DNA of 64,000 nucleotides from a bacterium (GCA_024275095.1 JAJRZV010000050.1:9833-73832); one strand, 5' to 3'. Positions 32,672-34,633 are shown, counted from the first letter of the stretch. Notes: generated by a model from the letters alone, not told the origin. Translations and numbers: made by a program.

Positions 32672-33481
32672 ATGAAACTCGATTTTACAGAAGAACAGAT
32701 CAAGCGATACGCACGGCACATTATCCTTCCGGAAGTGGGAGGAGTGGGCCAGAAGAAACTTCTTTCTTCGAGGGTACTGGTAGTGGGTGCGGGAGGACTT
32801 GGTTCACCCGCGGCATATTATCTTGCGGCAGCTGGGGTGGGAACCATAGGTATTGTGGATTTCGATACCGTGGAGCTGTCCAATCTTCAACGGCAGATCC
32901 TCCATTCCACGTCCCGCCTGGGGATGAGTAAGGTTGAATCTGCAAAGAAGACCATAGAAGATTTGAATCCTGACGTGAAGGTGATAATTCATCAGGAAAT
33001 GCTCACCAGCGAGAACATCTTTGATGTTATTGATGCATACGATATTGTTGTTGATGGAACGGATAATTTCCCGGTGAGGTATCTTCTTAACGACGCATGT
33101 TATTTTCGGAAGAAACCCCTTGTTCACGGAAGCGTATTTCGTTTTGAAGGCCAGGCGACGGTTTTTAAGCCGGATGATGGACCGTGTTACCGCTGCCTTT
33201 ATCCTGAACCTCCTCCCCCCGGGATGGTGCCATCATGTCAGGAGGCGGGAGTACTGGGTGTGCTCCCCGGTGTGATCGGAGTGATTCAGGCAACCGAGAC
33301 AATTAAGCTCGTCCTTTCCACCGGTAGACCTCTCATCGGTCGGCTGCTGATTTACAATGCACTTGATATGGAGTTCAGGGAACTGCAGTTAAGGAGACAT
33401 TCTCAGTGTCCATTGTGTGGCGAGAATCCCACCATTACAGAGCTTATTGATTATGAAGAATTCTGCCAGGTCCGGATTTAA
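32672..33481 (+). CDS. E1-like sulfur-carrier adenylyltransferase (MoeB/ThiF family)
   Basis: 269 residues. The ATP-binding GAGGLGSPAAYYLAAAGVG lies near 37-55, followed by DFDTVELSNLQRQI, DGTDNFPVRYLLNDAC and a structural zinc site formed by CYRCLYPEP and CPLCGENP. Such enzymes adenylate the C-terminal glycine of ThiS- or MoaD-like carriers. No carrier ending in Gly-Gly is encoded next to it; instead the four following genes are DsrE/F/H and TusA types. The rhodanese domain of MOCS3-like relatives is absent. Confidence 0.9.
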   Translation: MKLDFTEEQIKRYARHIILPEVGGVGQKKLLSSRVLVVGAGGLGSPAAYYLAAAGVGTIGIVDFDTVELSNLQRQILHSTSRLGMSKVESAKKTIEDLNPDVKVIIHQEMLTSENIFDVIDAYDIVVDGTDNFPVRYLLNDACYFRKKPLVHGSVFRFEGQATVFKPDDGPCYRCLYPEPPPPGMVPSCQEAGVLGVLPGVIGVIQATETIKLVLSTGRPLIGRLLIYNALDMEFRELQLRRHSQCPLCGENPTITELIDYEEFCQVRI

Positions 33482-33483
33482 AC

Positions 33484-33795
33484 ATGAGACGACTCGGCAT
33501 TCTTCTCACGCGTTCACCGGAACAGGGAGAGTTTTCACTTGCACTGAGACTCGCGCGCACAGCCCTGAAAAAAGGTGTTGATGTTCAGCTTTTTCTCATG
33601 GGAGAAGGTGTATACGGGCTTTTGCATTCTGAAATTCAAAAGCTTGCAGCCGAGGGCGTGCGCATTATGGTGTGTCGTTACAGTGCAGAAAGAAAAGGAA
33701 TACCCCGGGATTTTTACGGGAATGTGGACTCTGGCAGTCAGTATGACCTTTCCCATATGGTAGCACAATGTGATCGTTTTATTCCTCTCACGTGA
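33484..33795 (+). CDS. DsrE/TusD-like sulfur-relay protein
   Basis: 103 residues with the DsrE fold: start MRRLGILLTRSPEQGE, then SLALRLARTALKKGVDVQLFLMGEGV and GVRIMVCRYSAERKGI. The cysteine in the last stretch is at the position of the active-site persulfide cysteine of TusD/DsrE. It begins two bases after the E1-like gene and ends near the next DsrE-like gene. Likely a member of a heteromer with the next two proteins. Confidence 0.8.
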   Translation: MRRLGILLTRSPEQGEFSLALRLARTALKKGVDVQLFLMGEGVYGLLHSEIQKLAAEGVRIMVCRYSAERKGIPRDFYGNVDSGSQYDLSHMVAQCDRFIPLT

Positions 33796-33803
33796 GGTTT
33801 TAC

Positions 33804-34115
33804 ATGGCAAAAAACGTTGTAGTGGTAATACGTGATCATCCATTGTCTGGAGACTCCTTCAGCGAGGGACTTCGCATGAGTGTTGGTATGACCATTGCGG
33901 GTAATCGTGTAACAGTAATATTGCCGGAAGGTTCTGATACTGATCCACGACCCGAAAAGGTGGGCCTCGGAGAGATAGACATGCACTTTGAAGGTCTCAG
34001 TGAGTTAAAAGTGACGGTATTGACCCGGGGAATATGCTCTGAAAGAGCGCGCATGATTGACCACATTGAATTTAGAAATATTTTGGACACCAGCGATGTC
34101 ATCATATTCTGGTGA
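33804..34115 (+). CDS. DsrF/TusC-like protein
   Basis: 103 residues from ATG 33804 (TGAGG six bases before; the GTG at 33792 is less likely). MAKNVVVVIRDHPLSGDSF, then GLRMSVGMTIAGNRVTVILPEG, and the C-terminal half TRGICSERARM with the only cysteine. It ends with DVIIFW, as DsrE-family subunits often do. It overlaps the next gene by 20 bases. Assignment to the F/C branch is by order in the cluster. Confidence 0.75.
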   Translation: MAKNVVVVIRDHPLSGDSFSEGLRMSVGMTIAGNRVTVILPEGSDTDPRPEKVGLGEIDMHFEGLSELKVTVLTRGICSERARMIDHIEFRNILDTSDVIIFW

Positions 34116-34377
34116 ACACAACAGAACCCTCTTTATTGTGAAAAGGGTATTCGGCCATAAGGGTGAATTTGTTAAGCAACTTATGCGTTCAGGAGATATA
34201 GTTGTTCTCTCAATGGAAGGTGTTTCAGAGTTGCAAGGGAAGTGGCCTGAAGGTGTGACTCTAAGGGTTGTAAAAGAGGATGCTGAGGCTGCAGGGATTG
34301 AATGCAGTGATATGATTGTAAAAATGGAAGAGCTGGTGGAATTGATTTTCAGCTGTCGTAAAGTTGTTATCTGGTAA
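34096..34377 (+). CDS. DsrH/TusB-like protein
   Basis: 93 residues starting ATG 34096 inside the previous gene. A first beta strand with TLFIVKRVFGHKG is followed by FVKQLMRSGDIVVLSMEGV, a middle part with cysteine (AAGIECSDMIVKMEEL) and the ending LIFSCRKVVIW, which fits DsrH (last strand with final tryptophan). Together the three genes look like a compact TusBCD/DsrEFH complex. Confidence 0.75.
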   Translation: MSSYSGEHNRTLFIVKRVFGHKGEFVKQLMRSGDIVVLSMEGVSELQGKWPEGVTLRVVKEDAEAAGIECSDMIVKMEELVELIFSCRKVVIW

Positions 34378-34387
34378 GGAGGTGGAT

Positions 34388-34633
34388 ATGAGAAAGAAGG
34401 TGAAAGTGGATGATGAGATAGACATACGTGGAGAAGTATGTCCGTACACCTTTGTGAAGGCAAAAGTGGCTTTGGAGCAGCTTCCATCAGGAGCTGTCTT
34501 GAAGGTTATACTGGACCATCCACCAGCACGTGAAAACGTACCGCGTAGCATGAAAAGTGAGGGCCATGAAATTATTGAAATAGAAAATATCAATGATACA
34601 GATTTTTATATTCTTATTCGCAAAAAGAAGTGA
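34388..34633 (+). CDS. TusA/SirA-family sulfurtransferase
   Basis: 81 residues. The defining motif is near the start of the domain: DIRGEVCPYTFVKAK with C18-P19, the persulfide-carrying cysteine. PARENVPRSMKSEGHE follows in the TusA pattern. ATG 34388 follows AAGGAGG with six bases spacing. It closes the cluster; a gap of 70 bases follows before fmt. It could accept sulfur from a cysteine desulfurase not seen here. Confidence 0.9.
   Translation: MRKKVKVDDEIDIRGEVCPYTFVKAKVALEQLPSGAVLKVILDHPPARENVPRSMKSEGHEIIEIENINDTDFYILIRKKK

Follow-up and report, generated by a model that had tools for sequence, protein, structure and literature searches.

The question raised by a compact locus in a bacterial genome is what an E1-like enzyme does in the company of sulfurtransferases of the DsrE, DsrF, DsrH and TusA types. 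The window, that is, the whole stretch of DNA analysed, comprises 64,000 nucleotides and belongs to a draft genome of 136 contigs with 97% completeness; the relatives compared with it are no closer than the same domain. Five open reading frames were confirmed at positions 32672-34633, all on the plus strand:

32672..33481, + strand: E1-like adenylyltransferase of the MoeB/ThiF/UbaA type, 269 aa (Pfam, subfamily model and conserved cysteines)
33484..33795, + strand: DsrE-type sulfurtransferase subunit, 103 aa (PF02635, invariant Cys64)
33804..34115, + strand: DsrF-type subunit, 103 aa, ATG start (family profile and AlphaFold fold match)
34099..34377, + strand: DsrH/TusB-type subunit, 92 aa from the ATG, with a C-terminal Trp (sub-threshold TIGR03011, weak structural matches)
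34388..34633, + strand: TusA (SirA) sulfur carrier, 81 aa (PF01206, Cys18)

The original prediction had described five genes in tight order, and this was borne out: they lie on one strand, with gaps of 2, 8 and 10 nt and a 17-nt overlap between the DsrF and DsrH genes. A ribosome-binding site, AGGAGGT, is located upstream of the TusA gene, and a promoter scan gave no signal exceeding that of shuffled sequences. No yeeE or yedE gene was found among the genes flanking the cluster. As had been claimed, all four small proteins lack a C-terminal Gly-Gly; a search for a Gly-Gly carrier at the five-gene cluster found none, and a ThiS search put every carrier of the genome on other contigs.

The first of the five proteins is a ThiF domain alone (E=2.6e-87 against Pfam ThiF), with no rhodanese domain. 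It clears the MoeB subfamily model PRK05690 (328 bits, cut-off 266), and the UbaA model covers nearly all of it with 373 bits, below the cut-off of 450. Its cysteines include two CxxC zinc pairs (Cys172/175 and Cys246/249), the crossover-loop Cys189 and the C-terminal Cys265. Cys189 is kept in 43 of the 44 homologues collected, the exception being the second E1 of the same genome, in which the catalytic-cysteine loop is missing. These two are the only full E1s of the genome, a third match falling under the cut-off. In the E1 tree, the window enzyme is placed among E1s linked to DsrEFH and CysO, and its closest group is not well supported.

DsrE and TusA were recognized by PF02635 (E=2.8e-12) and PF01206 (E=5.3e-24), respectively. 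The single DsrF sequence had no match in Pfam or NCBIfam; its family profile finds the solved DsrF of A. vinosum (2hy5_B, E=5e-9), and its AlphaFold model (pLDDT 79) matches the DsrE/DsrF fold. DsrH scores 4e-5 against TIGR03011, under the cut-off of this model. Sequence comparison supports it by 2hy5_C and 2d1p_C, and the same entries (DsrH and TusB) are the top two PDB matches of its structural model (pLDDT 76), with weak E-values of 0.002-0.004. The expectation that the DsrE-like protein and TusA keep their cysteines proved to be right, since Cys64 of DsrE occurs in all 43 homologues collected and Cys18 of TusA, whose CPxP motif takes the variant form CPYTF, in 41 out of 41. Cys64 is the presumed counterpart of Cys78 in A. 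vinosum and Cys67 in cable bacteria. The cysteines of DsrF and DsrH are not conserved among homologues, and, judging by sequence, DsrF presumably plays a structural role. Among the three subunits, therefore, only the DsrE cysteine is conserved, the same pattern as in TusBCD/DsrEFH, where sulfur is carried by one subunit.

Two roles suggested for the cluster in the original prediction, a sulfur-energy pathway and tRNA thiolation, are disfavoured by the gene content of the genome. In the first of them, DsrEFH and TusA would feed DsrC and a reverse DsrAB, as in sulfur oxidisers, cable bacteria and disproportionators. DsrEFH beside TusA is an arrangement used as a marker of sulfur oxidation, a Bacillus relative (L080) shows the layout YedE-TusA-DsrEFH-TusA, and DsrEFH of type II, typically with TusA and YeeE, is present in 985 genomes (PMC13293266). 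However, the cluster contains no YeeE, no protein of the DsrC/TusE family was detected in the genome, DsrAB was not found in it at 97% completeness, and the only NIR_SIR protein over the cut-off, the sole one of the sulfite-reductase type, is a NirA-like fusion with TusA:

L014:5180-7498 (contig C61), - strand: NirA-type sulfite reductase, 772 aa, with a C-terminal TusA domain (residues 703-771, CPLNYVKTK motif)

In this protein, one chain holds both the reductase and an acceptor for sulfur. Also, we know of no role of an E1 in the DSR pathway, which counts against the dissimilatory reading. Because DsrAB and DsrC are absent, such a role was rejected; for a genome of this completeness it is largely refuted, and we give it a negligible probability.

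In the second role, wobble uridine of tRNA would be thiolated by a TusA-TusBCD-TusE-MnmA relay, with the E1 as a bystander. DsrEFH is homologous to TusDCB, MnmA is present, and operons of the Abyssobacteria type close with a ThiI-like PP-loop gene, but the relay would have no TusE/DsrC, E1 is linked to these genes in several phyla, and MnmA is encoded directly beside a cysteine desulfurase of the IscS/NifS type. Pairing of MnmA and desulfurase genes does not need Tus proteins. With TusE/DsrC absent and MnmA having a desulfurase neighbour of its own, the Tus-type relay was likewise rejected as extremely improbable. No rhodanese was detected in the genome at the HMM level; 13 of 14 control genomes have one. 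The absence of rhodanese, DsrC/TusE and DsrAB, together with the position of MnmA beside a desulfurase, thus removes the DSR and Tus-tRNA readings and leaves TusA/DsrEFH as the obvious protein donor of sulfur for a rhodanese-less E1.

The third suggestion, that sulfur is loaded onto a carrier encoded elsewhere, gained support. By the ThiS search, the genome has at least four carriers of the ThiS/MoaD fold, some of them clear and others likely:

L012:9421-9939 (contig C28), + strand: CysO-like carrier fused to a NIL domain, which follows Gly-Gly
contig C105: MoaD, adjoining MoaE
L015:829-2051 (contig C10): TtuB-like carrier, its gene overlapping the gene of a TtuA-type tRNA thiolase
contig C88: weak carrier candidate, adjoining an aldehyde-ferredoxin-oxidoreductase-like gene

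The gene order around the first of these carriers is thioredoxin-like ORF, Rrf2, ThrC, CysM, JAMM, carrier-NIL, TusA, Sat, and this CysO-CysM-JAMM unit and the E1-DsrEFH-TusA unit of the window are on different contigs. The carrier and its relatives form a family whose profile matches CysO of M. tuberculosis (3dwg_C, E=4e-32), and the neighbouring CysM matches cysteine synthases. Gly-Gly is placed ahead of the NIL domain in this genome and exactly or nearly at the C-terminus in relatives. As the NIL domain is fused after Gly-Gly, cleavage is needed before activation and is presumably carried out by the neighbouring JAMM protein.

This carrier also clears the NCBIfam model of SAMP1 (63.8 bits, cut-off 60), the JAMM protein resembles desampylase, and the E1 matches UbaA over its full length. 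These features would fit protein conjugation of the SAMP/Urm1 kind, where lysines receive the carrier and sulfur transfer is secondary. Nevertheless, the E1 and the JAMM protein score under the UbaA and desampylase cut-offs, no E2 was seen in the neighbourhoods examined, and a role in cysteine supply is indicated by the neighbours CysM, Sat and CymR/IscR-like Rrf2. We consider conjugation as the main function very unlikely; dual use of the carrier, in both conjugation and sulfur transfer, is possible.

A search for relatives of the DsrF protein yielded two matches, whose contigs carry carrier-E1-JAMM-DsrEFH-TusA-E1 and CysM-carrier-E1-DsrE-DsrF. When a DsrF alignment was run against 84,980 species genomes, 37 loci emerged; E1 was found within 5 kb of DsrF in 32 of them, TusA in 32 and both in 31. 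The E1 value of 32/37 is biased upward because the search pattern was built from E1-linked DsrF sequences, and two of the loci missing E1 or TusA end at contig edges. The linkage between E1 and DsrF spans bacteria and archaea and includes at least three gene orders. Since gene order varies and membership is retained, this is good evidence of a functional link, and the grouping of E1 with DsrEFH/TusA is not a matter of chance.

In Abyssobacteria and a Poribacteria-labelled MAG, one operon comprises Rrf2, a CysO-like carrier, E1, CysM, JAMM, DsrE-F-H, TusA, a second E1 and a ThiI-like gene. A Nitrospinota MAG has CysM-carrier-E1-DsrE-DsrF, reaching the contig end, and Chloroflexi have Rrf2, a carrier::E1 fusion, TusA, a carrier, CysM, DsrEFH and TusA. 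The order is DsrEFH-TusA-E1 in a Chloroflexota genome and E1-TusA-DsrEFH in Methanoperedens archaea. Thus, the CysO-family carrier, CysM and JAMM protein, which in our genome are encoded on another contig, share one operon with E1 and DsrEFH in relatives (L049 and L056). The combination of E1 and DsrEFH/TusA without a carrier, regarded as unusual in the original prediction, is so at this locus, but the relatives show that a carrier belongs to the system. E1 remains with the other genes in most lineages and is separate from them in anammox and other planctomycete loci, where a LipS2-like lipoyl synthase gene stands just upstream of DsrEFH in two of three cases, and in Bacillus, where no E1 is nearby. 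It follows from these E1-free loci that DsrEFH is not restricted to a carrier-loading role.

Some of these neighbourhoods have additional peculiarities. The operons of L049, L056 and L019 end with a second cysteine-bearing E1 and, immediately after it, a ThiI-like PP-loop protein that contains an NFACT-R_2 domain. In Chloroflexi (L113:6552-7634 and L114:4992-6080), a ubiquitin-like domain is fused to the N-terminus of E1, and a separate CysO-like carrier and CysM adjoin. Two DsrEFH sets per neighbourhood, with QmoC-like and HdrD/DsrK-like genes between them, were found in Chloroflexi L045 and L113. In genomes of the anammox lineage and Chloroflexota (L046, L047 and L063), the DsrEFH genes directly follow that of a LipS2-like radical-SAM lipoyl synthase; L046 also has a lipoate-ligase gene, and L047 was assigned by sequence similarity only. 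In Methanoperedens, neither CysM nor JAMM adjoins the carrier, whose neighbour is a threonine-synthase-like gene, so another product is possible there. Genes of this kind stand directly beside, or a few genes away from, carriers of the CysO/SAMP1 type in the genome of the window, Methanoperedens, Scalindua and Chloroflexi (L012, L108-L110, L111, L112), and the pairing possibly serves thiocarboxylate-dependent sulfhydrylation of O-phosphohomoserine.

Summarizing these data, it may be concluded, with a probability of about two-thirds, that the five genes form the sulfur-charging unit of a CysO/CysM/Mec-type protein-thiocarboxylate pathway to cysteine, in which TusA and DsrEFH replace rhodanese as the donor of sulfane sulfur. 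We infer the chemistry and the direction of sulfur flow from the gene content, protein families, conserved cysteines and linkage described above. Sulfane sulfur would be held as persulfide on Cys18 of TusA and on Cys64 of DsrE within the DsrEFH complex, while the JAMM protease would free the C-terminal glycine of the CysO-like ubiquitin-fold carrier and the E1 would adenylate it. The persulfide of DsrEFH/TusA, probably via Cys189 of the E1, would then exchange AMP for sulfur to give CysO-COSH, from which CysM may move the sulfur onto activated serine, the Mec-like JAMM protease releasing cysteine. One likely feed of this relay is the sulfite reductase with the fused TusA domain. Against the cysteine-pathway reading stand the location of the two units on different contigs in the window's genome, the carrier neighbourhood of Methanoperedens and the DsrEFH loci without E1. 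The two cysteine desulfurases of the genome, one beside MnmA and the other (SufS) in a Suf-like cluster, are possible alternative donors.

A bolder form of the cysteine-pathway reading is that sulfite is reduced on the TusA-bearing reductase and the resulting persulfide passes via TusA/DsrEFH and the E1 to CysO and cysteine, free sulfide never being released, so that DsrEFH would be an assimilatory sulfur chaperone common to bacteria and Methanoperedens. We advance it tentatively, as a possible but doubtful scheme. If it is true, DsrEFH, so far associated with the oxidation of sulfur or the thiolation of tRNA, gains an assimilatory role.

The E1 of the window, as the only cysteine-bearing one in the genome, might instead be a general sulfur hub that is fed by DsrEFH/TusA and loads more than one carrier, namely the CysO-like protein, the TtuB-like protein encoded beside TtuA and perhaps MoaDs. 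At least four carriers of the ThiS/MoaD fold face two full E1s, one of them without the Cys loop, and TtuC of Thermus serves TtuB, MoaD and ThiS (PMC3980101). On the other hand, the genes linked to it in relatives are specifically those of CysO, CysM and JAMM, and Moco could be left to the second E1. A hub is therefore, in our opinion, rather unlikely as an explanation, and it overlaps with the charging of a cysteine pathway because both load CysO. By analogy with the shared TtuC in Thermus, the TtuB-like carrier may be a further client of the window E1.

Some parts of this picture are already known, namely, E1 with TusA, carrier and JAB (2006), the biochemistry of CysO-CysM, and DsrEFH of type II with TusA (2026). 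A literature search for DsrEFH tied to E1 (MoeB/ThiF/CysO/thiocarboxylate), with subscription papers mostly outside its coverage and an earlier report therefore possible, found none, and the occurrence of DsrEFH within an E1/CysO/CysM operon is apparently a new combination. It offers a candidate answer to the question of which protein hands sulfur to rhodanese-less E1 enzymes. The DsrEFH-TusA set serves as a marker of sulfur oxidation in genomes (PMC13293266) and has been applied, with noted caveats, to Nitrospinota (PMC10839748). Cysteine-carrier operons of several bacterial lineages, among them that of a Nitrospinota MAG, contain DsrEFH of the E1-linked lineage, and in Methanoperedens this lineage lies next to E1, so the marker can mislead unless E1, CysO and CysM neighbours are checked; the presence of DsrEFH-TusA genes is not in itself a sign that sulfur is oxidised to gain energy.

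In comparison with known systems, the cluster resembles the operons of Iyer et al. 2006 (Table 1, row 4e, including a Wolinella example; PMC1779556), in which an E1 without rhodanese is encoded with TusA (SirA). These operons also contain a ThiS/MoaD carrier, JAB, ATP sulfurylase and sulfite reductase; in operons for sulfur assimilation that include ThiS/MoaD and JAB, an E1 without rhodanese always has SirA/TusA as its companion, and a rhodanese-like action of SirA had already been predicted (PMC1779556). However, that class is without DsrEFH ("Dsr" is absent from the main text of PMC1779556), whereas here DsrEFH lies between E1 and TusA. The row 4e neighbours, i.e., the carrier, JAB and sulfate-assimilation genes, are on other contigs (C28 and C61) in this genome, and carrier and JAMM join the E1 operon only in relatives, with CysM (cysteine synthase) rather than Sat/SIR.

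Syntenic dsrE, dsrF and dsrH with tusA and a single functional cysteine in DsrE are shared with the DsrEFH type II or YTD cluster, for which exchange of sulfur between TusA and DsrEFH in both directions via Cys67 of DsrE was found in vitro (PMC13293266). The cluster is homologous to that of Bacillus L080, which has the type II gene layout. The likeness is one of gene layout; YeeE/YedE, DsrAB and DsrC are absent here, and the linkage is to E1 and an assimilatory pathway, not to DSR. TusBCD of E. coli and DsrEFH type I of A. vinosum (2HY5) share with our proteins the DsrF and DsrH folds, the set of three subunits and the active cysteine on DsrE/TusD only, but sequence identity is low and their acceptor TusE/DsrC is absent from this genome. 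Similarly, the UbaA and TtuC E1s are alike in size (about 270 aa), catalytic cysteine and two CxxC motifs, and almost all of the E1 in the window aligns to the UbaA model; here, the score is under the UbaA cut-off, and the partners are CysO, CysM and JAMM together with DsrEFH.

A further counterpart is the CysO-CysM-Mec system of Mycobacterium with MoeZR, which likewise consists of a CysO-family Gly-Gly carrier, a cysteine synthase, a JAMM-type protease and a MoeB-type E1, and in which MoeZR sulfurates CysO to form CysO-thiocarboxylate (PMC3227635). In contrast to Mycobacterium CysO, the carrier of this genome is fused to NIL and encoded on a contig other than that of the E1. MoeZR has a C-terminal rhodanese domain, whereas the E1 of the window has none and is co-encoded with TusA and DsrEFH instead, which thus would stand in for that domain.
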